The notes under the pieces were generated by a model, which was not told where the DNA came from, did no database searches, and saw nothing but the letters and a program-made list of their open reading frames with translations. Shown one piece after another: positions 53,513-64,000 of a stretch of DNA of 64,000 nt; the stretch's first letter is position 1, and every line of letters starts with the position of its first letter. The translations under genes and the position numbers were made by a program. Source of the stretch: Alloyangia mangrovi (GTDB lineage Bacteria; Pseudomonadota; Alphaproteobacteria; Rhodobacterales; Rhodobacteraceae); NCBI RefSeq assembly GCF_002300555.2, contig NZ_NTHN02000002.1, positions 62,001 to 126,000 of the forward strand, given 5' to 3'.

Positions 53513-53878
53513 TCAGCGCTCGGTCGGATGGCCGGCGTCGATCCAGCCCTGCGTGCCTGTCTCGACGAAGGCAACCCGCGCGACGCCCGCCTTCACCAGC
53601 GTATGGGCGGCGAGCGCGCCCATCGGGCCGGCCTGGCAGGCGGTGATGACTTCGCCCTTGTGGTAGGTGATCTGAGGCGGGATCTCCCCTGCCTCGAGCC
53701 GCTCCAGCGGTGCGAGGATCGCGCCGGGAATGCGCCCGGTGGTCCTGGCGATCGCCTCGGCGGGGCGGGGGTCGACGAAGAGCGCGCCCCCGGCGTGGCG
53801 GGTTGCGGCCTCTTCGGCGGTGATCGAACGGACGGCCGCACGGGCCTCTTCGACGTGGGTGTTGAAGCAGTTTGCCAT
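53513..53878 (-). CDS. Rhodanese-like protein
   Basis: 121 residues. Single rhodanese domain: LFVDPRPAEAIARTTGRIPG and the catalytic loop TACQAGPMGALAAHTLVKAG with Cys in the place that carries persulfide. Expected to transfer sulfane sulfur to a thiol or to cyanide. It is downstream of the YgjV-like gene, possibly one transcript from the promoter at about 54.5 kb. Nearby OsmC and cysteine synthase genes suggest a sulfur theme. Confidence 0.75.
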   Translation of the reverse strand: MANCFNTHVEEARAAVRSITAEEAATRHAGGALFVDPRPAEAIARTTGRIPGAILAPLERLEAGEIPPQITYHKGEVITACQAGPMGALAAHTLVKAGVARVAFVETGTQGWIDAGHPTER

Positions 53879-53943: not shown

Positions 53944-54492
53944 TCAGGCGGCGGCGGGCAGCGCGGCTTGCCGCACCCGCCATTCCCGGTGCAGCGCAGC
54001 GGCGCCGATGCAGGCCGAGAGCAGCGCACCCATGAGTCCGGGCAGGGCGCCGACCACGAGGTCGTAGCCGATGCCGAAGGGCGCGGCGCAGAGCAGGATC
54101 GTGCGCATCCGCAGCGTGTCGCCCTGCATCCGGCCGATCATCACCAGGCAGCAGGCGGTCATCGCAAGGCCCGAGGCGAGCCCGCACCAGGTCAGCGCCG
54201 TCACCAGCCAGACCAGCGGCAGGAATACGAGCCCCATGTGGCGCAGCCAGGGGCGGTCCCCGGCGGCGAGGGCGATGAGCGTCTGGGTCGCGCCGATGGC
54301 GCAGACGCCGGTGCCGCTCCACTGGCCCAGCAGCGCGTATTGCGCGGCGTAGCAGCCGGCGATGCAGGCCTGCGCCGAGAGCATATGGCGGCGCTGCCGG
54401 AAAAGCGGCTAGACCAGTTGTCCGGCCAGTCCCGCCGATCCGAAAAGGGCCGCCGGGGAAGCTGCGGGGATCAGGGGAAGAATGTCGGGCAT
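53944..54492 (-). pseudogene. YgjV-family membrane protein interrupted by an in-frame TAG
   Basis: From ATG 54492 (GGAGG five bases ahead) the frame reads PDILPLIPAASPAALFGSAG to LAGQLV, meets TAG at codon 28 (54411-54409), and continues in the same frame as PLFRQRRHMLSAQACIAGCY to 53944. The body has about five hydrophobic helices as in E. coli YgjV. A one-base change TGG to TAG explains it. An internal ATG after the stop could still yield a shorter protein. Confidence 0.6.
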
Positions 54493-54509
54493 CGTGGCCT
54501 CCATGAAAA

Positions 54510-54525
54510 CAGACTATTTGGTCTG
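54510..54525. promoter_or_regulatory. TetR-type operator, YgjV/rhodanese promoter
   Basis: CAGAC-TATTTG-GTCTG is a perfect five-base inverted repeat. A second copy with one conserved half (TTTGGTCTG, 54540-54548) stands next to it. The same layout recurs in front of the tetR gene, which points to the adjacent TetR protein as the binder. Confidence 0.6.
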
Positions 54526-54570
54526 CATTGAGCGTACCGTTTGGTCTGTTTCCTGGGGAGGCGCTTCCGG

Positions 54571-54605
54571 GTTTCGGTTGTTTCACCTGCGTTTCAGCGC
54601 GTTTC
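54571..54605 (-). promoter_or_regulatory. GAAAC repeat array, set a (reverse orientation)
   Basis: On the reverse strand GAAAC occurs four times with starts 10, 11 and 9 bases apart (forward-strand positions 54601, 54591, 54580, 54571), then again at 54548-54552, 23 bases further. It faces the YgjV/rhodanese genes. Member of the five-site set described under the findings. Confidence 0.55.
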
Positions 54606-54660
54606 AGCCGTATTTTTCGGTATTTCTTGCAGCGCAGGCCGCGAGCGCATAACCTGAATA

Positions 54661-54676
54661 CAAACTGAATGGTTTG
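54661..54676. promoter_or_regulatory. TetR-type operator overlapping the tetR leader
   Basis: CAAAC-TGAATG-GTTTG has the same 5-6-5 layout as the site at 54510. It overlaps the region just upstream of the ribosome binding site of the tetR gene, so autorepression is likely. Confidence 0.55.
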
Positions 54677-54686
54677 GAGATGCCTC

Positions 54687-55319
54687 ATGTCCCGCAAAGG
54701 CGCGCAGTCCCGCGAACACATCCTCGGAACCTCCCGCGAGCTCGTCATGGAGAAGGGTTTCGCCGGCACGTCGATCGACGACATCCTGCGCAAGGCGGGG
54801 GTGTCAAAGGGCGCCTTCTTCCACCACTTCGGCTCCAAGGCCGAGCTCGCGCGCGAGCTCGTGCGCTGGCACGCCGGGCAGGACATCGAGATGTTCCGCA
54901 CCCTCGCCGCCCGTGCCGAGGCGACCCATGACGACCCCTACGACCAGCTGATGATGTTCCTGCAGGGGTTCGAGACCTATATCTCCAATCCCGAACAGCC
55001 CTCGCGCGGGTGCATGTACGCGGTCTACACCTACGAGAACGCCCAGTTCGACGAGCAGGTGCGCGGCATCGTCTCGGAGGTGCTGCGCGAGTGGACGGCG
55101 ATCTACATCCGCAAGTTCCAGGAGGTTCTCGACGTGCACCCGCCGCGCATGGAGGTCTCGGCCCGGCAGCTCGCCGAGATGATCGTGTCGATCATCGAGG
55201 GCGCGCTGGTGCTGCAGCGCGCCTATGGAAAGACCGACATGACCGCCCGCCAGTCGCGACATTTCCGTGACTATCTCGCGCTGCTCTTCGACAAGCCGGC
55301 GCAGGCCGCCGCGGCCTGA
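54687..55319 (+). CDS. TetR/AcrR family regulator
   Basis: 210 residues from ATG 54687. N-terminal helix-turn-helix REHILGTSRELVMEKGFAGT, then SIDDILRKAGVSKGAFFHHF. The C-terminal ligand domain carries SRGCMYAVYTYENAQFDEQV with one Cys, perhaps reactive. Divergent from the YgjV/rhodanese genes; palindromes in the gap fit repression of both directions. Closest in feel to electrophile-sensing regulators, but this is impression only. Confidence 0.85.
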   Translation: MSRKGAQSREHILGTSRELVMEKGFAGTSIDDILRKAGVSKGAFFHHFGSKAELARELVRWHAGQDIEMFRTLAARAEATHDDPYDQLMMFLQGFETYISNPEQPSRGCMYAVYTYENAQFDEQVRGIVSEVLREWTAIYIRKFQEVLDVHPPRMEVSARQLAEMIVSIIEGALVLQRAYGKTDMTARQSRHFRDYLALLFDKPAQAAAA

Positions 55320-55340
55320 GCCGCCCAGAAATCCCCGCGT

Positions 55341-55391
55341 GAAACGAATGAAACAGCCCGCGCAATCGGCCTGAAACGCGCGGCCGTCAGA
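55341..55391 (+). promoter_or_regulatory. GAAAC repeats and GTCAG element, set b (OsmC operon)
   Basis: GAAAC at 55341 and 55350 (9 apart), then at 55373 (23 from the second). Eight bases after the last comes GTCAGA (55386-55391). The start codon of the OsmC gene is 70 bases further. Confidence 0.55.
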
Positions 55392-55460
55392 ACTTCTGTC
55401 CATCGGAAGGGCGCAGCGCCCGACGAGTTCACCAGACCCCAAATGGACAGGAGTTAAGAC

Positions 55461-56039
55461 ATGACGACCCAGACCCTCGAGAAGCCCGCCAAGACCGCCA
55501 TGAACGGCGTCGACGTGCCCACCTTCCTCGCCACGCTCGGCGTGGTCGGAGAGACCCCGCAGATTGCCCAGTTCACCTTCCGCGCTGACGGAGAGTGGCT
55601 CTCGGGCACCCACAGCCGCACCGCCTTCACCGGCTTCCACGGCGCCATGCAGGAGATGCAGCACCGCCGCGACTACGCCGTCGAATGCGACCACCCGCAG
55701 GTGCTCTGCGGTGCCGACAACGGCGTGACCCCGGTCGAGCTGCTGCTGGCGGCGCTGGCCTCCTGCATCACCGCGGGTATCGGCAACATCGCCTCGATCC
55801 GCCAGGTGAAGCTGCATGCGGTCGAGACCAAGGTCGAGGGCGACATCAACCTGAACGGCATCCTCGGCCTCGACAAGTCCGCTCGCAACGGTTTCACCGG
55901 CGTCCGCATGGCGGTGAAGATCCGCGGCGACGCCCCGCAGGAAAAGCTGCGCGAGATCGTCGAGCAATCGGTCGCCCGCTCCGCCGTCTTCGATGTGCTG
56001 AGCAACGGTGTGCCGGTCTCGGTCGAGATGGCCGGCTGA
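55461..56039 (+). CDS. OsmC family protein
   Basis: 192 residues. OsmC fold with RDYAVECDHPQVLCGADN and the central helix VTPVELLLAALASCITAG; that last Cys is at the position used by OsmC/Ohr for redox chemistry. The family reduces hydroperoxides and can act on persulfides. Ribosome binding site AGGAG. First gene of a two-gene unit with a 56-residue protein. GAAAC elements upstream. Confidence 0.8.
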   Translation: MTTQTLEKPAKTAMNGVDVPTFLATLGVVGETPQIAQFTFRADGEWLSGTHSRTAFTGFHGAMQEMQHRRDYAVECDHPQVLCGADNGVTPVELLLAALASCITAGIGNIASIRQVKLHAVETKVEGDINLNGILGLDKSARNGFTGVRMAVKIRGDAPQEKLREIVEQSVARSAVFDVLSNGVPVSVEMAG

Positions 56040-56116
56040 GCCGACCCCCTGACAGACCGCCCGCGCCGACCGGGCGCGGGCCAACCCCTTCATCCCTGCC
56101 CCCAAAGGAGAAACCC

Positions 56117-56287
56117 ATGCCCCGTTTCAACGCGCACGCCGCCAAGCCCAGCTACGGCTCCGGCTTCGACAATGTCGCCCTGCGTGACACCTTCGCCGAC
56201 TTCCGCGCCTGGTGGGACCGCAACACCCTGCTGGCTGACGCGCCGATGACACAGCAAAAGGATACCTCGCTGCCGATGGCCGCCTGA
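56117..56287 (+). CDS. 56-residue hypothetical protein
   Basis: ATG 56117 after the good site AAAGGAG. The product is soluble: RFNAHAAKPSYGSGFDNVAL, then FADFRAWWDRNTLLAD. Two Trp and two Phe in a helix suggest a small adaptor. It follows the OsmC gene within one transcript; a terminator stands right after. The family is not recognised. Confidence 0.6.
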   Translation: MPRFNAHAAKPSYGSGFDNVALRDTFADFRAWWDRNTLLADAPMTQQKDTSLPMAA

Positions 56288-56321
56288 GCCCCGCAGACCT
56301 CCCTTCCTCCCTTCCTCCCTG

Positions 56322-56358
56322 ACGGCCCGTCGCTCCTGCGCTGCGGGCCGTTCGCTTT
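56322..56358 (+). terminator. Terminator of the OsmC unit
   Basis: ACGGCCCG pairs with CGGGCCGT around a 14-base loop, followed by TCGCTTT. Confidence 0.6.
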
Positions 56359-56378
56359 GCGGCTCGCAGCGCGGCTCT

Positions 56379-56439
56379 GAAACAGTCGAAACGCGAAACC
56401 GCCTTTCGCGAGGCAGGGCCGAAACGCGGCGCGGTCAGT
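56379..56439 (+). promoter_or_regulatory. GAAAC repeats and GTCAG element, set c (flavoprotein operon)
   Basis: GAAAC at 56379, 56388 (9 apart) and 56395, then at 56421, 33 bases from the second. Eight bases after it comes GTCAGT (56434-56439). The flavoprotein start is 29 bases further. Confidence 0.55.
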
Positions 56440-56467
56440 CTTGGGGAAACCGCAACGGAGAGACCCC

Positions 56468-57715
56468 ATGAGCACCGCAACCAGCGTCCTGATCCTCGGA
56501 GCCGGCCAGGCCGGCCTCGCCCTAAGCTGGTCCCTGTCGCAGCGCGGCATCGACCACATCCTGCTCGAGCGCGGCCGGGTGGGCGAGCGCTGGCACGCCG
56601 AGCGCTGGCCGGGGCTGCACCTGCTGACTCCCAACTGGATGAACCGCCTGCCGGGCCCCTGGTCCGAGGCGGAGCCAGAGGGCTTCATGTCAGCCGCCGG
56701 GTTTGCCGCCCGGCTCAAGAACTACCGCGAGGCCATTTCGGCGCCCGTGATCACCGGCTGCGAGGTGCAATCGGTCGAGCGCGAGAATGGCCGGTTCCGG
56801 GTCGTTGCGGGCGGGCGGCAATGGTTTGCCCGCGCGGTGGTCATCGCCACCGGCGCCTGCGACCTGCCCGCGGTGCCGGCCTGGGCCAAGGCCTTGCCAA
56901 AGGAAATCATTCAGGTCGTGCCGACCCGCTACCGTGGCGCCGAAGCGCTGCCCGAGGGCGGCGTGCTGGTCGTCGGCGCCTCGGCTACAGGCGTGCAGCT
57001 GGCCGCCGAGATACAGGCCTCCGGGCGACCGGTGACGCTGGCGGTGGGTCGCCACGTACGCGCGCCGCGCCGCTACCGGGGGCGCGAGATTTTCGAGCTG
57101 CTTTCGCAGAGCGGCTTTCTGGATGCCTCGCGCCCCGAGGATGCCGACCCGGCGCATCTGATGGCGCTGCCCTCGCTGCAACTCACCGGCTCGGCCGGTG
57201 GCGCGGCGCTTGGCCTCGACCGGCTGCAGGCCATGGGCGTGCGGCTGGTGGGGCGGGCGCTTGGGGCGGAGGGTGGCACGCTGCACTTCGAGCCTGCGCT
57301 CGGTGCCGAGATCGACGCGGGCGAGCGGCGGCGGCGCAAGCTGCTGACCCAGCTCGAAACGCACCTTGCCGAGACCGGGAGCATGCTGCCCGCCGATCCC
57401 GAGGCCTGGCGCGCGCCGGACCTGCCGCGCGTCGGCCCGGAGAGGCTCCACCTGCCGGCGCAGGGCATCCGTACCGTCGTCTGGGCCACCGGCTTCCGCC
57501 GCGCCTACCCCTGGCTGCACCTGCCGGTGCTGAACTCCGCGGGCGAGCTGGAAACCGACCGCGGGACGACCGCCGTGCCGGGGCTTTATGCGCTTGGCCT
57601 GCCGTTCCTGCGCCACCGGGCCTCGGCCTTCATCCACGGGGTCGGGCGCGATGCCGAAGACCTTGCCCCGCTCATTGCCGCCGGTCTGCGCCGGGGCATC
57701 CAACTCGCCGCCTGA
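56468..57715 (+). CDS. FAD-dependent monooxygenase-like protein
   Basis: 415 residues from ATG 56468. FAD motif LILGAGQAGLALSWSLSQRG near the N-terminus, ARAVVIATGACDLPAVP, then the NADPH motif VLVVGASATGVQLAAEIQAS and the late ATG motif TVVWATGFRRAYPW. The layout is of flavin-containing monooxygenases of the TrkA/YhiN side. The substrate is unknown. Likely co-transcribed with the next flavoprotein. Confidence 0.8.
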   Translation: MSTATSVLILGAGQAGLALSWSLSQRGIDHILLERGRVGERWHAERWPGLHLLTPNWMNRLPGPWSEAEPEGFMSAAGFAARLKNYREAISAPVITGCEVQSVERENGRFRVVAGGRQWFARAVVIATGACDLPAVPAWAKALPKEIIQVVPTRYRGAEALPEGGVLVVGASATGVQLAAEIQASGRPVTLAVGRHVRAPRRYRGREIFELLSQSGFLDASRPEDADPAHLMALPSLQLTGSAGGAALGLDRLQAMGVRLVGRALGAEGGTLHFEPALGAEIDAGERRRRKLLTQLETHLAETGSMLPADPEAWRAPDLPRVGPERLHLPAQGIRTVVWATGFRRAYPWLHLPVLNSAGELETDRGTTAVPGLYALGLPFLRHRASAFIHGVGRDAEDLAPLIAAGLRRGIQLAA

Positions 57716-57755
57716 CAGATTTCAACCCGCCACAGATCCAAAAGGGAAGTTCGAC

Positions 57756-58892
57756 ATGACCAGAGAGACTTACGACGCACTCATCGTTGGGGCCCGCTGT
57801 GCCGGCGCCGCCACCGCCCTGCAACTGGCCCGCAGCGGGGCAAAGGTCCTGCTGATCGACAGCGCCCGCGCCGGCACCGACACCATGTCCACCCATGCGC
57901 TGATGCGCGGGGCGGTGATGCTGCTCGAGCGCTGGGGCCTCGCCGAACCGCTGCGCGCCGCCGGGACCCCCCGGATCACGCGCACCAGCTTCATCTACGG
58001 CTCCGAAGCCATCGACATCGCGCTCCGCCCCGAGCACGGCGTCGAGACCCTGATGGCGCCGCGCCGCCACCTCTTGGACCGGATGCTGGCCGAGGCCGCG
58101 GCCGAGGCGGGGGCAGAACTGCGCTTCGAGACGAGCTGTGCGGCGCTGATCCAGGACCCGCAGGGCCGGGTCCGCGGCGCGCGCCTGTCGCTGCCGGATG
58201 GCAGCACGCGGGAGGTCTCTGCAGGGCTGGTCATCGGCGCCGACGGCAAGCGCTCGCGCGTCGCGCGGCTGGTCGGGGCCGCGGTCACGCGGCAGGCAAA
58301 CCACACGGTGGCCTGCGCCTACCAATACGTCTCGGGCCTGCCCAACCGCGGTTTCCGCTGGCACTTCGCCGATGGGGCGGCGGGCGGGATTATCCCGACC
58401 AATGACGGCGGCAGCTGTGCATTCGTCGCGCTGCCGGAAAACTCCGCCGCCGAGCTGCGCAGCGCTTCGGTGCGGGCGCTGGCGGCGCGTCACATGCCGG
58501 CGATGGCCGAGGATATGGCCGGAGCGGAGCCCGCCGAGGCGCGGGTGATCTTCGCCGGACACAAGGGCTACATGCGCCGCTGCACCGGCCCCGGCTGGGC
58601 GCTGGTGGGCGACGCCAGCTGGTTCCGCGACCCGATCACCGCCCATGGCATCACCGACGCCTTCCGGGATTCCGCGCTGCTGGCCGAGGCCGTGAAATCG
58701 GGCACCCTGAGCAGCTACGAGGCGCAGCGGGACCAGCTCTCGCTGCCGATCTTCGAGCTTTCCGACCGCATCGCCAGCTTCGACTGGTCGCTGGCCGAGC
58801 TGGCCGGTCTGCACAAGCAGCTGAACCGCGCGATGAAGGCGAACCAGGCGTGGATCGCCGGAGACGGGGACGAGCTGCGCCGGGTGGCCTGA
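57756..58892 (+). CDS. FAD-dependent oxidoreductase (PHBH/geranylgeranyl reductase-like)
   Basis: 378 residues from ATG 57756, with AAGGGAAG ahead. Single FAD domain: ALIVGARCAGAATALQLARS with a Cys in the dinucleotide loop, VSAGLVIGADGKRSRVARLV, and the GD motif ALVGDASWFRDPITAHGITD. This is the pattern of aromatic hydroxylase relatives. Follows the monooxygenase-like gene by 40 bases. The substrate is unknown. Confidence 0.8.
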   Translation: MTRETYDALIVGARCAGAATALQLARSGAKVLLIDSARAGTDTMSTHALMRGAVMLLERWGLAEPLRAAGTPRITRTSFIYGSEAIDIALRPEHGVETLMAPRRHLLDRMLAEAAAEAGAELRFETSCAALIQDPQGRVRGARLSLPDGSTREVSAGLVIGADGKRSRVARLVGAAVTRQANHTVACAYQYVSGLPNRGFRWHFADGAAGGIIPTNDGGSCAFVALPENSAAELRSASVRALAARHMPAMAEDMAGAEPAEARVIFAGHKGYMRRCTGPGWALVGDASWFRDPITAHGITDAFRDSALLAEAVKSGTLSSYEAQRDQLSLPIFELSDRIASFDWSLAELAGLHKQLNRAMKANQAWIAGDGDELRRVA

Positions 58893-58965
58893 GCGGGAGC
58901 GAAAGCCCGGACAGGCCGTGCTGTTGCCGGGCGGGGGGGAGGCTCCGCCCGATCTCAGGAGTGCT

Positions 58966-59026
58966 GAAACAATCGAAACAAAGCGGCCGCCACCTCGACA
59001 CGCGGCTGAAACAGGGCGTGCCTAGG
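58966..59026 (+). promoter_or_regulatory. GAAAC repeats and GTCAG-like element, set d (hemoglobin-kinase operon)
   Basis: GAAAC at 58966 and 58975 (9 apart), then 59008, 33 from the second. Eight bases after that comes CCTAGG (59021-59026), where the other sets have GTCAG or GACAG. The hemoglobin start codon is 122 bases further. Confidence 0.55.
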
Positions 59027-59147
59027 CTGGTTTTTCCCCTTCGGACGAAATCCTTGCCACAGAGGTGCAAGATCCCGCATGTTTGTAGAGCATTACAGAT
59101 CAGTAGATTTTTACGTCAAAATGCCGCGCGCTCCGGGGGAGGTGGCC

Positions 59148-59504
59148 ATGGAGAAGTCCCTGTTCGACAAGTACGGCGGCTTTTCCGTCGTCAGCAAGAT
59201 CGTCCTCGACCTCTACGACCGGCTGCTCGACGACGATGACGTCGGCCCGTTCTTCGACGAGATCGACATGGCCCGCATCGTCGATCACCAGACCAAGTTC
59301 GTCTCCTCGCTGATGGGCGGTCCGGCCTCCTATACCGACGAGCAGATCCGCAAGATGCACGCGCATCTGACGATCCATCAGCTGCATTTCGACAAGCTGC
59401 AGGGCTTGCTGCGCGCGACGCTGGCCGACCACGGCGTCGTCCCCGAGGACCAGGACGCGATCCTTGCCGCCTTCGAGGCGCGGCGCACCCTTGTAACCGA
59501 ATAG
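59148..59504 (+). CDS. Truncated hemoglobin, group I type
   Basis: 118 residues from ATG 59148, with GGGGGAGG ahead. Two-over-two globin pattern: LFDKYGGFSVVSKIVLDLYD, VDHQTKFVSSLMGG on the distal side, and MHAHLTIHQLHFDKL with the probable proximal His. Binds heme and O2 or NO. First gene of a unit that goes on with a cyclase-like protein, hybrid kinase and response regulator, so it may supply or buffer the gas they sense. Confidence 0.85.
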   Translation: MEKSLFDKYGGFSVVSKIVLDLYDRLLDDDDVGPFFDEIDMARIVDHQTKFVSSLMGGPASYTDEQIRKMHAHLTIHQLHFDKLQGLLRATLADHGVVPEDQDAILAAFEARRTLVTE

Positions 59505-59514
59505 GAGAGGCGCC

Positions 59515-60564
59515 ATGACCATCGCCGCGATCAACGAGCAGCTGCTGAGGGCGATCGGGGTCGGGGTGGCGCTGCTCGACCTGCAGAGCCTTCGCTTGCG
59601 CTTCTGCAACGATACCTTCCGCGGCTGGTTCGGCGAGATAGAGGTGGGCTCCAACCTGCTTGAGCAGTTCCAGGATTTCGACACCGAGGCGCTGCGTGCC
59701 GCCCTCGCCGGCGAGGGGCGCTACACCACCGAGACAACCTTTCGGCTGCGCCGCCGCACGATGACCGTTGCGATGGATTTCAACCGCGCGCTCGACGAGG
59801 ACGAGCCGATCGCGGTGCTGGTGTGCCAGAACATCTCGCGCATCAAGGAACTGGAGTCGATGATCGACAGCTACTCGATGATGGTCGAGCGCAACACCCG
59901 CGAGATCAAGCGCGAGAAGGAGCAGGTCGAGAAGCTGCTGCTCAATATGATGCCGCGCTCGGTCTACGAGGAATACAAGACCTTCGGCATCGTCACGCCC
60001 CGGCTCTACGATCCGGTCTCGGTGGTCTGCATCGACTTCATCGGCTTTTCCGAGATGGTCAGCACGCATGAGCCGGCGGTGATCGTCTCGGAGCTCAACG
60101 ACATCTACACCGCCTTCGACCGCATCGGCGAGCAGTTCGGCTGTGCCCGGATCCGGGCGGTGGGCGATCTCTACATCGGCGTCGCCGGGCTGCCCGATCC
60201 CACCGACGATCACGCGCAGGCCGCCGCCAATGCCGCGATCCGCTTCATGCGCTATCTCAACCAGCGCAACGGCAGCCATCCAATCCAGTGGCGCTGCCGG
60301 GTCGGCATCGCCTCGGGGGCGGTCGTCGGCTCGGTGGTCGGCGTGCAGAAATACATCTACGACGTCTTCGGCCCGGCGGTGATCGCCGCCAGCCAGCTCC
60401 GCTACAAGGCCGAGCCGATGACCATTTCCGGCAACCGCGCGGTGGTCGAGCGGCTCGGGGATGAGTTCACCGCCACCGAGGCGGGCAGCATCACACTCTC
60501 GGACGGCAGCGAGGAGACGGTCTTCCGCATTGCCGCCGAGATGCGCGCGCAGCAGGAGCGCTGA
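59515..60564 (+). CDS. PAS domain plus class III nucleotide cyclase-like domain
   Basis: 349 residues. N-terminal PAS-type domain (GVGVALLDLQSLRLRFCNDT), a signalling helix (ESMIDSYSMMVERNTREIKR), then a cyclase domain. Metal Asp residues are kept at D174 (VVCIDFIGFSEM) and D218 (RAVGDLYIGVAG), and D283 at the base-recognition position (YDVFG). The transition-state Asn and Arg of active cyclases are replaced (I290 and Q294 in GPAVIAASQL). It may be inactive or act by another chemistry. Starts ten bases after the hemoglobin gene. Confidence 0.75.
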   Translation: MTIAAINEQLLRAIGVGVALLDLQSLRLRFCNDTFRGWFGEIEVGSNLLEQFQDFDTEALRAALAGEGRYTTETTFRLRRRTMTVAMDFNRALDEDEPIAVLVCQNISRIKELESMIDSYSMMVERNTREIKREKEQVEKLLLNMMPRSVYEEYKTFGIVTPRLYDPVSVVCIDFIGFSEMVSTHEPAVIVSELNDIYTAFDRIGEQFGCARIRAVGDLYIGVAGLPDPTDDHAQAAANAAIRFMRYLNQRNGSHPIQWRCRVGIASGAVVGSVVGVQKYIYDVFGPAVIAASQLRYKAEPMTISGNRAVVERLGDEFTATEAGSITLSDGSEETVFRIAAEMRAQQER

Positions 60565-60565
60565 G

Positions 60566-62473
60566 ATGGCGGTGCGTTTCGACTCTTCGGTGCCGGAATC
60601 GGCGGAGGGCGCGGCGCGGCGCCCCGCCGACATGCTGGCCGAGGTGATCGACGCGCTGTCCGAAGGGCTCGCGATCTTCGACGAGAACGCCGTTCTGCTC
60701 CGCTTCAACCGCGGCTTTGCCGAGATGAACCCGGCGGTGGGGGACCTGCTGGCCGAGGGGCTGGGCTGGCCGATCCTGCTGCGCGAATGGGTGGTGCGCG
60801 GCGGGCTGAACGCCGGGGACGCCGAGCGGCTCAGCTTCATGGAGGCGCGGCTGGCGGGCGGCGACTGGATGGTCACCCCGCTCGAGATCGAGGGCGGCGA
60901 CCGGGTGACCGAGATCCTGCTGCGCAGCACCGCCGCGGGCGGCTTCGTGCTGGTGCAGACCGATATCACCGAGCGCCGCGCCTTCGAGGAGACCGAGCGC
61001 GCCGCCGACCAGCTGGTGCGCAAGGTGCTCGAAAGCTGCCCGGCCAACATCATCATGTCCCGCGTCGGCGACGGCGAGGTGATCTACCGCTCGCCCGCCG
61101 CCACCGAGCTGCTTGGCAGCTCCGAACACACCCACGCGCATTTCGCCTCGCGCGCCGAACGCGCCGATTTCATCACCGCCGTGCTGCCCGACGGGCGGGT
61201 CGACGACATGCCAGTGACCGGCATTCGTGCCGACGGCGCGCGCTTCCCGAGCCTCGTCTCGGCGCGGCTGATCCAGTACCGGGGCGAGGATGTGCTGGTC
61301 TCGGCGACGGTGGATGTCTCCAAGGAGGTTGACCTGCGCCGCCGCCTCGCCGCGCAGCGCGAGCAGATCTTCCAGGCCGAGAAGATGTCCGCCCTCGGCG
61401 AGCTTCTGGCCGGGGTGGCACACGAGCTGAACAACCCGCTTTCGGTGGTGGTCGGCCACGCGCTGATGCTGCGCGACGAGGAGATCTCGGACGAGGTGCT
61501 GCGCCGGGTCGAGAAGATCTCGGATGCCGCCGAACGCTGCGCCCGGATTGTGAAGTCCTTCCTTGCCATGGCCCGCCAGCAGCCCGCGCGGCTGGTGCCC
61601 ATGGACATTGCCGAAACCGTCGAGACCGCGGTGGGCGCGCTCTCGCAAAGCGCCGAGGGGCTGGGGGCGGAGGTGTCGCTGACCATCGCGCCGGAGCTGC
61701 CGCCGGTGCGCGGCGACGCCCACCAGATCGCGCAGGTGGTGATCAACCTCGTGACCAACGCCGATCAGGCCATCGGCGAGAGCGGCATCGGCGGCCGGAT
61801 CGACATCTCGCTCAGCCACGACCCCGCGGCGCAGATGGTCGAGCTGCGCGTCGCAGACGACGGGCCGGGCATCCCGAAGGACATCCGCAGCCGCATCTTC
61901 GACCCGCTCTTTACCACCAAGCCCGTCGGCTCGGGCACCGGCATAGGTCTGGCCCTCTGTCACCGCATCGTCACCGCCCATTCCGGTGCCATCGCGGTGG
62001 CCGAAGGCGGGCCGGGTGCGACGCTGGTGGTGCGCCTGCCGACCACCGAGGCGGACGCCGCGAATGACCCCGCCAAAACCACCTCCGAAGGGGCGGCCGG
62101 GCGCGGAGCGGTACTGGTGGTGGATGACGAGGAGGACGTCTCGGACCTCATTCGCGAGATCCTCCTGCGCGACGGCTTCGAGGTGAGTGTGGCAAATTCC
62201 GCGGAGGCCGCGCTCGAGCTGCTTGCGACGCGGGACTTCGCGCTGATCCTCACCGACCTCAACATGCCCGGCCTCGGCGGGCGCGGCTTCTACGAGCGGC
62301 TCCTGCGCGACCGCCCGGCGGTGGCCCGCCGCATGGGCTTTGTCACCGGCGACACCATGAGCCCGCAGGCCCGGGGCTTTCTCGACGGCGCCGGTCGGCC
62401 CTTCCTCGAAAAGCCCATTGCGCCTGACGACCTGCGCCGCCTCGCCCGCGCCATGCTGGAGGGCGGCGCATGA
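60566..62473 (+). CDS. Hybrid sensor histidine kinase (two PAS, HisKA, HATPase, REC)
   Basis: 635 residues from ATG 60566, one base after the cyclase stop. PAS 1 at about 20-135 (IDALSEGLAIFDENAVLLRF), PAS 2 at about 150-260, H-box with H286 in LAGVAHELNNPLSVVVGHAL, ATP-binding N and G boxes (INLVTNADQAIGESG; ADDGPGIP; GSGTGIGLALC), and a C-terminal receiver with D564 (LTDLNMPGLG). No membrane helix, so it is a cytosolic sensor. It should feed the regulator encoded next. Confidence 0.9.
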   Translation: MAVRFDSSVPESAEGAARRPADMLAEVIDALSEGLAIFDENAVLLRFNRGFAEMNPAVGDLLAEGLGWPILLREWVVRGGLNAGDAERLSFMEARLAGGDWMVTPLEIEGGDRVTEILLRSTAAGGFVLVQTDITERRAFEETERAADQLVRKVLESCPANIIMSRVGDGEVIYRSPAATELLGSSEHTHAHFASRAERADFITAVLPDGRVDDMPVTGIRADGARFPSLVSARLIQYRGEDVLVSATVDVSKEVDLRRRLAAQREQIFQAEKMSALGELLAGVAHELNNPLSVVVGHALMLRDEEISDEVLRRVEKISDAAERCARIVKSFLAMARQQPARLVPMDIAETVETAVGALSQSAEGLGAEVSLTIAPELPPVRGDAHQIAQVVINLVTNADQAIGESGIGGRIDISLSHDPAAQMVELRVADDGPGIPKDIRSRIFDPLFTTKPVGSGTGIGLALCHRIVTAHSGAIAVAEGGPGATLVVRLPTTEADAANDPAKTTSEGAAGRGAVLVVDDEEDVSDLIREILLRDGFEVSVANSAEAALELLATRDFALILTDLNMPGLGGRGFYERLLRDRPAVARRMGFVTGDTMSPQARGFLDGAGRPFLEKPIAPDDLRRLARAMLEGGA

Positions 62474-63168
62474 GCGACCATGTCCTCATCTGCGACGACG
62501 AGCAGGACCTGCGCGAGATGGTCGGCGAATACCTCGGCAAGCGCGGCTATCGCACGACACTGGCGGGCGGCGCAGACGAGCTGCGCGAGAAGCTGGCGCA
62601 GGAGCGGCCCGATCTGATTCTGCTCGACATCAACATGCCCGGCGAGGACGGGCTCTCGGTGCTGCGCAGCCTGCAGGGACCGGAGGCGCCGATGGTCATC
62701 ATGCTGACTGCCGCAGGCGAGGTGATCGACCGGGTGGTCGGCCTCGAGATGGGGGCGGACGACTACCTTGCCAAACCCGTGGACCTGCGCGAACTCGCCT
62801 CGCGGATAAAAGCGGTGCTGCGCCGCCAGACCTCGGTCCCGGAAGAGGCGCCGCGCGAGCGCACGCGCTTCCGTTTCGGCAAGACATGGCTCGACCTCGA
62901 CGCGGCCAAGCTCTTCGACGAGGAGGGCGTCGAGCTGCCGCTCACCGCCATGGAGTTCAACCTGCTCAAGCTCTTCGCCCGCAACCGGGGGCGGGTGCTC
63001 AACCGCGACCAGATCCTCGAAGGGGCGCACGACCGGGCGTGGGATCCCTTCGACCGGTCGATCGACATCCGCATCTCGCGCATCCGCAAGAAGATCGAGG
63101 TGAACCCGGCCAAGCCCGAGGTGATCCGCACCGTGCGCGGCGTAGGTTACATCTACGATCCGGGCTGA
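62470..63168 (+). CDS. OmpR-family response regulator
   Basis: 232 residues, start overlapping the kinase stop (ATGA). Receiver domain with D53 (LILLDINMPGEDG) and the Lys of YLAKPVD; winged-helix domain at about 130-230 (LPLTAMEFNLLKLFARNRGR, then DRSIDIRISRIRKKIEVNPA). OmpR-type proteins bind direct repeats, which fits the tandem GAAAC boxes of the region. Autoregulation through set d is likely but inferred. Confidence 0.9.
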   Translation: MSDHVLICDDEQDLREMVGEYLGKRGYRTTLAGGADELREKLAQERPDLILLDINMPGEDGLSVLRSLQGPEAPMVIMLTAAGEVIDRVVGLEMGADDYLAKPVDLRELASRIKAVLRRQTSVPEEAPRERTRFRFGKTWLDLDAAKLFDEEGVELPLTAMEFNLLKLFARNRGRVLNRDQILEGAHDRAWDPFDRSIDIRISRIRKKIEVNPAKPEVIRTVRGVGYIYDPG

Positions 63169-63175
63169 TAGAATT

Positions 63176-63227
63176 GAAACACGCGCGCCGCTTTGCGGAC
63201 ACGCGCGCGAAACACCGAACGGACAGA
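63176..63227 (+). promoter_or_regulatory. GAAAC repeats and GACAG element, set e (globin unit)
   Basis: GAAAC at 63176 and 63209, 33 apart, with GACAGA (63222-63227) eight bases after the second. The globin start is 33 bases further. There is no 9-base partner to the first box. Confidence 0.5.
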
Positions 63228-63260
63228 CTGGCTGCATCATCCGACCCATAGGAGAGCGCC

Positions 63261-63698
63261 ATGACCCTGACCCCGCAACATATCACCGACATCCGCCGCA
63301 GCTGGCAGGTGCTGGCCACCGAGGCTGACGCCTTCGCATCCGGCTTCTACGACCAGCTTTTCCGCAGCGACCCCGGCCTCCGGTCGCTCTTTGCCCGCAC
63401 CGATCTGCCCGCGCAGCGCCGCAAGCTGATCGCGGCGATCGGGCTTGTGGTGCGCCATGCCGACGATCTGTCGCCGGTGATCGGCCCGCTCACGGAGCTC
63501 GGCGCCCGGCACCTGGGCTACGGCGTGAAGGACAGCGACTATACCACGGTCGGCGGCGCGCTGATCGAGACCATGGAGGCGCACCTGCAGGAGGCCTTCA
63601 CCCCCGAGGTCCGCGACGCCTGGCTCACTGCTTACGGGGCGGTCGCGGGCACGATGATGGCGGGCGCGCAGGCCGCCGCACCGCGCAAGAGCGCCTGA
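63261..63698 (+). CDS. Single-domain globin
   Basis: 145 residues. Three-over-three globin similar to Vitreoscilla-type domains: ITDIRRSWQVLATEADAFAS, FYDQLFRSDPGLRSLFARTD, the distal-side Gln in PAQRRKLIAAIGLVV, and the proximal His in LGARHLGYGVKDSDY. No reductase domain follows, so it relies on another protein for electrons. Second hemoglobin in the region, with its own GAAAC element. Confidence 0.85.
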   Translation: MTLTPQHITDIRRSWQVLATEADAFASGFYDQLFRSDPGLRSLFARTDLPAQRRKLIAAIGLVVRHADDLSPVIGPLTELGARHLGYGVKDSDYTTVGGALIETMEAHLQEAFTPEVRDAWLTAYGAVAGTMMAGAQAAAPRKSA

Positions 63699-63708
63699 GG
63701 GGGCCGCC

Positions 63709-63840
63709 ATGTCCAACGCTCCCTCCCCCTCGATCCCACTCGCCGCAGTCAAGGTGGCGGGCCTGCGCAGGCTCCTCGCTGCCGCGGTGCTCGCCTCGGC
63801 CTTTGGGGTCTTCGCCCATTGCCTGCTTCCGCTCCTCTGA
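63709..63840 (+). CDS. 43-residue membrane protein
   Basis: ATG 63709, ten bases after the globin stop, with GGGGG ahead. A basic segment (VKVAGLRRLL) is followed by one hydrophobic helix with a Cys and His (LAAAVLASAFGVFAHCLLPL). It ends 26 bases before the cysteine synthase gene. A small anchor or regulator is possible; no family is recognised. Confidence 0.5.
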   Translation: MSNAPSPSIPLAAVKVAGLRRLLAAAVLASAFGVFAHCLLPLL

Positions 63841-63866
63841 GCGCCTTTCGAACAAGGAGTTTCCCG

Positions 63867-64000
63867 ATGACCAGAGCGTTTCAGAACATCCTCGAGGCCG
63901 TCGGCAACACGCCCATCGTCCGGATCACCAAGCTCGCGCCCGAGGGCGTCGAGCTCTACGTCAAGCTCGAGGCTTTCAACCCCATGGGCTCGGTCAAGGA
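63867..64000 (+). CDS. Cysteine synthase / cystathionine beta-synthase family, 5' part
   Basis: 44 residues before the window ends. FQNILEAVGNTPIVRITKLA and VKLEAFNPMGSVK are the N-terminal signature of the PLP-dependent O-acetylserine sulfhydrylase family; the last Lys is the Schiff-base residue. It would make cysteine from sulfide. The AAGGAG site is present. Whether a regulatory CBS domain follows is outside the window. Confidence 0.85.
   Translation, partial: MTRAFQNILEAVGNTPIVRITKLAPEGVELYVKLEAFNPMGSVK

Follow-up and report, generated by a model that had tools for sequence, protein, structure and literature searches.

Rigidly spaced GAAAC repeats in a globin gene cluster of Alloyangia mangrovi: probable PhoB-like operators of the cluster's own two-component system

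The stretch of Alloyangia mangrovi DNA considered here (contig NZ_NTHN02000002.1, positions 62,001 to 126,000; 64,000 nucleotides, referred to as the window) contains a gene cluster encoding globins, a nucleotide cyclase, flavoproteins, an OsmC-family protein and a two-component system, and direct repeats of the word GAAAC stand upstream of its genes. We propose that these elements are PhoB-like operators of the cluster's own two-component system (kinase, 60566–62473; regulator, 62470–63168) and place the probability of this at about 0.82. The GAAAC pattern is rigidly spaced in the promoters of the cluster and recurs beside related alphaproteobacterial regulators, and it is therefore very probably the site of the cluster's own switch protein. 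The proposal is based on the motif, its spacing, its clade-specific association and its conservation. An earlier note on this DNA had named the local OmpR-type regulator as the likely binder, and this assignment is supported by the confinement of the motif to one regulator clade, by the contrast among relatives and by conservation.

The earlier note reported GAAAC pairs 9 bp apart at 55341/55350, 56379/56388 and 58966/58975 and, on the minus strand, at 54584–54580 and 54575–54571, with a third GAAAC 33 bp further on at 56421, 59008 and 63209, or 23 bp further on at 55373 and at 54552–54548 (minus strand). All of these coordinates and spacings were correct on re-checking, and so was the offset of exactly 8 bases between the last GAAAC and the elements GTCAG (sites b and c), CCTAG (site d) and GACAG (site e). 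Alignment of 21 sites yielded the form TGAAACAATTGAAACA, a gap of ∼16 bases, GACATCNNNCTGAAAC, N10 and YA(G/A), and with this comparison the motif is sharpened to four direct repeats (D1–D4) and a −10 box. D1 and D2 are 9 bp apart, D3 and D4 are 11 bp apart, and the distance from D2 to D4 is 33, 32 or 23 bp. In the long class the repeats begin at 0 (D1), +9 (D2), +31 or +30 (D3) and +42 or +41 (D4), while in the short class D3 and D4 are at +21 and +32, which makes the D2–D4 distance one helix turn shorter. The earlier scheme of three GAAACs was correct for the GAAACs themselves but overlooked D3, which lies 11 bp before the last of them. D3 has the form GA(C/A)A and starts with GA in 21 of the 21 aligned sites, and the A of the −10 box is present in 19. 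Since the sites were selected by the upstream pair and the last GAAAC alone, with neither D3 nor the −10 A playing any part, the constant GA of D3 argues for four repeats. The NNYAG element described previously (GTCAG, GACAG or CCTAG, followed by CT) is likely to be a −10 hexamer and reads CAGTCT, TAGGCT and CAGACT, with CAGAAC in site b. The CT(T)GG tail said to follow it is alike among congeners but weak in the wider 21-site alignment, and its resemblance being confined to congeners, it was rejected as a general fifth element.

A larger set of 76 sites in 40 loci was selected with a position weight matrix (PWM). The D2–D4 distance in this set is 33 bp in 56 sites, 32 bp in 13, 23 bp in 6 and 34 bp in 1, in a selection that penalised distances other than 33 by 1–6 bits and that contains near-identical loci (L137/L154/L286 and L271/L272). 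D3 is mostly GACAT- or GAAAT-like.

Site b (55341–55393, plus strand, 23 class) lies upstream of the OsmC gene and comprises D1 at 55341–55345, D2 at 55350–55354, D3 (GCAAT) at 55362–55366, D4 at 55373–55377 and the −10 box CAGAAC at 55388–55393. Sites c, d and e are also on the plus strand and belong to the 33 class. Site c (56379–56441), upstream of the flavoprotein genes, has D1 at 56379–56383, D2 at 56388–56392, D3 (GAGGC) at 56410–56414, D4 at 56421–56425 and CAGTCT at 56436–56441. Upstream of the truncated haemoglobin (trHb), cyclase, kinase and regulator genes is site d (58966–59028), with D1 at 58966–58970, D2 at 58975–58979, D3 (GACAC) at 58997–59001, D4 at 59008–59012 and TAGGCT at 59023–59028. 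Site e (63167–63229) precedes a globin gene; its D1 is a degenerate GATAG (63167–63171) that overlaps the stop codon of the regulator gene, and it is followed by D2 at 63176–63180, D3 (GACAC) at 63198–63202, D4 at 63209–63213 and CAGACT at 63224–63229. Site a (54531–54605, minus strand), upstream of the ygjV and rhodanese genes, is weak and atypical. Its GAAACs are at 54605–54601, 54595–54591, 54584–54580 (D1), 54575–54571 (D2) and 54552–54548 (D4, at +23), D3 is missing, and a possible −10 box, TACGCT (54536–54531), is one base off the usual position. Between site a and ygjV there is a perfect palindrome, CAGACTATTTGGTCTG (54510–54525), and a similar sequence overlaps the last GAAAC of site a; the palindrome is kept in two congeners, with one change in each.

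Single GAAAC words are not enriched in the window (80 versus 73 expected). The pair GAAACN4GAAAC occurs four times against 0.02 expected, each time upstream of a cluster gene, a count that none of 100 shuffles reached, and GAAACN{4,6}GAAACN{18,28}GAAAC also occurs four times against 0.00 expected. The whole A. mangrovi genome (5.53 Mb) contains the pair 13 times, compared with 5 for a reversed-pattern control, and the 9 copies beyond the window all lack a GAAAC 22–34 bp further on. A genome-wide search with R1, a sequence model of the motif trained partly on the window sites, returned site d (E 5.8e-11), site e (1.9e-10), site c (4.5e-10) and site b (0.022), with a partial match only to site a (E 5.5) and unrelated matches from E 0.095. 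No PWM match at ≥14 was found in a 313-kb Markov control. Both the PWM and R1 were trained on the 21 sites, taken from the window and eight relatives, so that only out-of-sample figures are independent.

Such figures were obtained from 44 further loci (37 regulator-clade loci and seven stretches from G244, G004 and G476) with a rule requiring the upstream pair and any GAAAC 12–60 bp downstream. There were 33 finds, of which 31 had spacings of 22–23 or 32–34 bp; these include two doubtful finds at 22 bp (in L278, a shifted reading of another site, and in L284, without D3), and one site of L132 enters the count twice, as 23 and as 32. Among the 31, D3 starts with G in 29 cases, 24 of them with GA, and 30 have the −10 A. 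These spacings bear out the idea that the two forms differ by one helix turn. Applied to the 1.37 Mb surrounding 79 non-clade regulators, the rule produced a single find, at 14 bp. The window shuffles, the genome search, the Markov control and the non-clade loci together exclude a motif that is equally frequent at random positions, an outcome that the earlier note had said would count against it.

The regulator was sought in 295 genomes of the family, 385 genomes of the class, a wider contig set and plasmids. After removal of identical and short sequences, the resulting 125 regulators are not a random sample, being made up of the best 80 of 589 contig matches, the family and class matches and six plasmid records, and contig ends cut some of the loci short (L115, L287 and L295). 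Loci with the motif (PWM ≥26) number 32 of 125 and all fall within one 46-member clade (support 100/97); around the 79 regulators outside the clade there was no motif at this threshold. When the regulators are divided by identity to the window regulator, the motif accompanies 30 of 46 at ≥49% identity and 2 of 79 below it (Fisher 5e-15, a guide only because the rows of the tree are related). Genomes drawn from the class gave a similar association: with the A. mangrovi genome left out, 8 of the 12 genomes with the motif (E≤1e-4) have the regulator at E≤1e-75, versus 24 of 384 overall (Fisher 3e-8). In each of the 8 the regulator gene has a motif no more than ∼6 kb away. In G384, another of the motif genomes in this draw, the motif and the regulators are on different contigs; its two regulators are nearest to clade members (E 2e-70 and 3e-64).

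Relatives within the family allow the trHb–cyclase genes to be compared with and without the regulator. Cyclase orthologues (E≤1e-30) are present in 23 of the 295 family genomes, A. mangrovi included, and among the stretches retrieved around 20 of them strong copies of the pattern occur in 8 (L042–L048 and L056), before OsmC, trHb, kinase or other genes. Of the family relatives examined, nine have a clade regulator in their genome besides the cyclase, and eight of these nine have sites on the cyclase stretch. No site reached PWM 28 (best score 17.5) on the stretches retrieved from the 11 relatives with trHb–cyclase genes in which no clade regulator was found (L049–L055 and L057–L060), and two of these siteless stretches, L059 and L060, still carry OsmC and flavoprotein genes. 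In these 11 genomes the absence of a clade regulator means no match at E≤1e-60, a threshold at which a diverged regulator could be missed, except that G263 and G092 have regulators, which are placed outside the clade. The earlier note held that the motif should not be absent from relatives that keep the kinase–regulator pair, and it is mostly retained, as in 8 of the 9 family relatives, but not in G240 nor, for the most part, in recognisable form in the sub-branch around Ruegeria TM1040.

The relative G244 has sites before its OsmC (73%), flavoprotein (56%) and cysK (78%) genes. Its regulator (L118, 12953–13609) consists of 218 residues, of which the last 110 are 77% identical to the DNA-binding domain of the window regulator; Pfam gives Trans_reg_C only, with no receiver and a different N-terminus, and no kinase was seen in the stretch. 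G244 keeps the DNA-binding domain and the sites without the receiver, which suggests that the motif is read by the DNA-binding domain. Several relatives have a site immediately before the kinase gene itself. Among the plasmids, pLA3 of Novosphingobium pentaromativorans US6-1 has four sites and the gene order OsmC, two flavoproteins, truncated haemoglobin, cyclase, kinase, regulator, pyridoxal phosphate (PLP) enzyme and decarboxylase, while pAA01 of Aminobacter aminovorans has three sites (PWM ≥26) near a kinase–regulator pair and pSM-3 of Skermanella mucosa has one site. The regulator of N. pentaromativorans US6-1 shares 75% identity with that of the window. On a plasmid of Rhizobium sp. RCAM05350, D4 starts 54 bases before a globin gene that adjoins the kinase–regulator pair. 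The Bradyrhizobium loci have the 23-bp form.

Conservation was assessed in a sample of 20 genomes of the genus (A. mangrovi included), nine of which contain the regulator at E≤1e-60; the eight besides A. mangrovi were retrieved. In site b, D1, D2, D3 (GCAAT) and D4 are identical in all seven aligned rows (the window and six congeners), and in site c, D1, D2, D4 and the GA of D3 are likewise kept in 7 of 7. In all eight rows of site d, D1, D2 and the initial GA of D3 are unchanged; D4 is kept in seven, L348 being the exception. The eight full rows of site e agree in D2, D4 and the first two letters (GA) of D3, and D1 is GAAAC in 4 of the 7 congeners. Site a could be aligned in two congeners only, with D1 and D2 in both and D4 in one. 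The spacers between D1 and D4 drift in sequence among congeners while their length is constant. For L350, whose regulator is 55% identical, the match extends to a few bases only.

Each operator combines an upstream pair, GAAAC-N4-GAAAC (9 bp), with a downstream pair, GACAT-N6-GAAAC (11 bp), that occupies the −35 position, the last repeat ending 10 bp before a weak −10 box (YAGNCT, resembling TANNNT). The pho box of enterobacteria consists of direct repeats 11 bp apart that replace the −35 element ∼10 bp before the −10 box and are bound by the winged-helix response regulator PhoB. The operators described here are alike in having D3 and D4 11 bp apart in the place of the −35 element and a conserved YA 10 bp after D4, and this PhoB-type (class II) spacing is found in 19 of the 21 training sites and 30 of the 31 out-of-sample sites, as judged by the −10 A. 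They differ from the pho box in their word (GAAAC/GACAT rather than TGTCA), in the extra 9-bp pair at a fixed upstream distance and in the absence of phosphate genes from the targets inspected. Binding, activation, the role of the −10 box, the arrangement of dimers and the operons are what we infer from these features. The phosphorylated regulator would bind the downstream pair in place of a −35 box, in the manner of PhoB, with help from a second regulator dimer bound to the upstream pair on the same helical face. D1, D3 and D4 lie on one helix face (0/31/42 or 0/21/32), so that a second upstream dimer is likely. The bound regulator would recruit RNA polymerase, and the globin, trHb–cyclase, OsmC, flavoprotein and cysK–glutaredoxin genes would be switched on jointly. 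Since site d precedes the trHb, cyclase, kinase and regulator genes, the circuit would also activate itself. In five loci (L125, L270, L132, L047 and L127) the kinase gene is predicted to begin 27 bases downstream of the first base of D4, and those transcripts may therefore be nearly leaderless.

Several results weigh against this proposal. Site a, which lacks D3, is not significant genome-wide (R1 E 5.5). No site at PWM ≥26 is present in 14 of the 46 clade loci, and a looser pattern applied to 15 loci with no site or a weak one recovered a weaker form in L138 and L265 (upstream of the kinase) and none in the other 13. Of 16 whole genomes or plasmid records, 10 gave no match to the motif at E≤0.01 (G210, G240, G548, G474, G388, the genomes behind L134, L138 and L139, the Ruegeria TM1040 megaplasmid and pCO-6). 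G240 has a clade regulator and the cyclase, and no site was found either on its short stretch L061 or genome-wide. The sub-branch around Ruegeria TM1040 mostly lacks a recognisable form of the motif, and two of the six plasmid stretches (Ruegeria TM1040 and Chelatococcus CO-6) have no site at PWM ≥18. These siteless loci and genomes imply either that the operator has drifted in some branches or that the regulator uses other sites there. In the class draw, 16 of the 24 genomes with the regulator lack the motif at 1e-4; nine of the 16 have regulators outside the clade and, of the other seven, G586 and G651 have sites of the 23-bp class by PWM. Conversely, G441, G409 and G638 have the motif at 1e-4 and no regulator that is clearly in the clade. 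The ten motif genomes of the family draw at 1e-4 are A. mangrovi, the eight training relatives and G244, so that nine of ten supplied training sites and the draw is not an independent test; its weaker matches, present in 122 of 295 genomes at E≤0.1, look like chance. Finally, repeats of OmpR-family regulators are usually 10–11 bp apart, and the upstream pair is shorter at 9 bp, so another protein could bind it.

An unlikely alternative is that two proteins share the operator, the regulator binding D3–D4 by the −10 box and an unrelated factor the upstream GAAACAATTGAAAC pair. The pairs do differ in spacing (9 versus 11 bp) and in sequence, and GAAACAATTGAAAC is well conserved and holds the palindrome CAATTG. 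However, all four elements can be read on one strand as versions of a single GAAAC word, the helical phase of both pairs is fixed, and the two occur together in the company of one regulator clade; no recurring second DNA-binding gene was noticed, without a systematic search for one. That the repeats merely reflect shared ancestry or duplication of promoter DNA, with no regulatory meaning, has next to no probability: sites b–e do lie within 8 kb, but the spacer DNA changes from congener to congener whereas the elements and the intervals between them do not, and related regulators of other orders have the pattern next to them as well.

It is very improbable that the repeats are promoters recognised by an alternative sigma factor; EcfG, the factor of the general stress response, would be an example, its −35 element GGAAC resembling GAAAC. 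EcfG-type promoters in Sphingomonas have the form GGAAC-N17–20-GTT (PMC6599016), but here GTT follows the last GAAAC by 15–20 bp in only 4 of the 76 sites, on which ground this candidate was ruled out, and a sigma factor would explain neither four repeats at fixed spacing nor the link to one response-regulator clade. There is a similarly slight chance that the repeats are bound by the TetR-type regulator encoded at 54687, inside the region and adjoining site a, where the palindrome CAGACTATTTGGTCTG would suit a TetR operator. TetR proteins typically bind palindromes rather than direct repeats, and CAGACTATTTGGTCTG, which is separate from the repeats, is likely to be the operator of this adjacent regulator. 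A tetR match of >60 bits was found in none of the 20 family stretches, 8 of which have the motif, and with its own palindrome nearby, TetR was ruled out as the binder of sites b–e. An RNA element or riboswitch was also ruled out, as an Rfam search of 54000–64000 up to E 0.1 gave no match.

An OmpR-family regulon with a direct-repeat operator is of a kind already known. A GAAAC half-site has a precedent in GlnR, an OmpR-type regulator of actinomycetes whose half-sites gTnAc and GaAAc are separated by n6 (11 bp; PMC5826061). GlnR boxes are a-n6-b-n6 units that vary between promoters, whereas here the repeats start at 0/9/31/42 and the −10 box keeps a constant distance from them; the gTnAc-n6-GaAAc-n6 form is not seen here, D1 and D2 being 9 bp apart and D3 not being GTNAC. 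GlnR also belongs to another phylum, and here a hybrid kinase is encoded alongside the regulator. RegA of Rhodobacter is not known to belong to the OmpR class. The RegB/RegA system is otherwise comparable as two-component redox control in an alphaproteobacterium, and both occurrences of GAAAC in a paper on it (PMC5359404) are in primers. The EcfG promoters share a GGAAC-like word in an alphaproteobacterial promoter and differ in being two-part (PMC6599016). No description of the motif, the regulator clade or the regulon was found in titles and abstracts of the open-access literature, which is not proof of absence; at that level of coverage this particular operator, regulator clade and regulon appear to be new as a variant of the OmpR-family regulon.

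The proposed binder (62470–63168, plus strand) has the domain layout of the OmpR/PhoB family, a receiver (Response_reg, PF00072, 1.5e-27) followed by a winged helix (Trans_reg_C, PF00486, 3.2e-23). Its best match among NCBIfam OmpR-family equivalogs (OmpR, VirG, TorR, PhoB and others) is OmpR, at 215.5 bits against a cutoff of 331, and it is below the cutoff in all of the 25 best families of the 94 matched. The hybrid histidine kinase (60566–62473, plus strand) contains PAS domains, HisKA, HATPase and a receiver. A conserved haem or thiol ligand in its N-terminal 260 residues, which would have revealed the signal, was rejected, there being no conserved Cys or His in 17 aligned kinases. Upstream on the same strand are the class III nucleotide cyclase (59515–60564), which has a weak N-terminal PAS match and PDB matches to adenylate cyclases and to soluble and particulate guanylate cyclases, and the truncated haemoglobin (59148–59504; Bac_globin), which possibly starts at 59079, as the sequence around that ATG is conserved in congeners. 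The trHb and class III cyclase genes are neighbours in many genera, and also in L049–L055 and L057–L060, for which the searches gave no clade regulator; this arrangement suggests a haem-sensing cyclase module. Site e is followed first by the gene for a globin (63261–63698, plus strand; PF00042, 2.7e-15), homologues of which adjoin the clade kinase–regulator genes in G231 and G586. From 63867 of the window to position 1366 of L041 runs a gene that joins a cysK-like part to a glutaredoxin domain (PALP and Glutaredoxin); its pLA3 counterpart is followed by a pyridoxal-dependent decarboxylase.

The other putative targets were assigned by domain search. The proposed target of site b is an OsmC-family protein (55461–56039, plus strand) and that of site c a flavoprotein (Pyr_redox_3; 56468–57715, plus strand), which is related to TIGR04046 (the MSMEG_0569 family) at 300 bits, below the cutoff of 498. 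The TIGR04046 family is linked to nitrilase clusters. A gene for an FAD-binding monooxygenase-like protein (57756–58892, plus strand) is probably cotranscribed from site c, given the 40-base gap. Site a may serve the minus-strand genes for a YgjV-type membrane protein (53944–54384, the 3′ part of its frame) and a rhodanese-domain protein (53513–53878). The ygjV frame (53944–54492, minus strand) seems to start near 54490 and has one in-frame stop after 27 codons, before the start of the open reading frame at 54384, so that either the gene is disrupted or the sequence contains an error. Ten target genes from outside the core cluster were examined by Pfam and gave a hydrolase, VTT, an ammonium transporter, a glutaminase, a Mo-co oxidoreductase, LCCL, one Omp85 match just under the cutoff and three without a family above the cutoff; a common function was rejected, as there is no clear theme. 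Small DUF1127 proteins recur directly after sites (L123 9637–9867 and L291 825–1094 by Pfam; L266 7895–8134 as annotated), and DUF1127-like proteins, judged by sequence only, also follow sites in L125, L126 and L127.

A wider proposal, which we advance only tentatively, is that of a widespread and so far undescribed regulatory code. One regulator clade, with members in several alphaproteobacterial orders and in at least one metagenome-assembled genome labelled Gammaproteobacteria, may read a composite four-repeat operator, a non-canonical combination of a 9-bp and an 11-bp pair that tolerates exactly one helix turn between its halves, and its core form, coupled to trHb and cyclase, might be a circuit informed by haem in which globins, thiol enzymes and flavoproteins are deployed against haem-binding or sulfur stress. 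The sequence test pairs the regulator clade with DNA sites in many genomes, so that target genes can be listed by computer, and the signal of the clade could then be traced with a reporter. The four-part operator and its one-turn variant would offer a natural case for studying the co-operation of two OmpR-type dimers. With globins, the trHb–cyclase pair and thiol enzymes under one proposed switch, a signalling role of bacterial globins would become testable.

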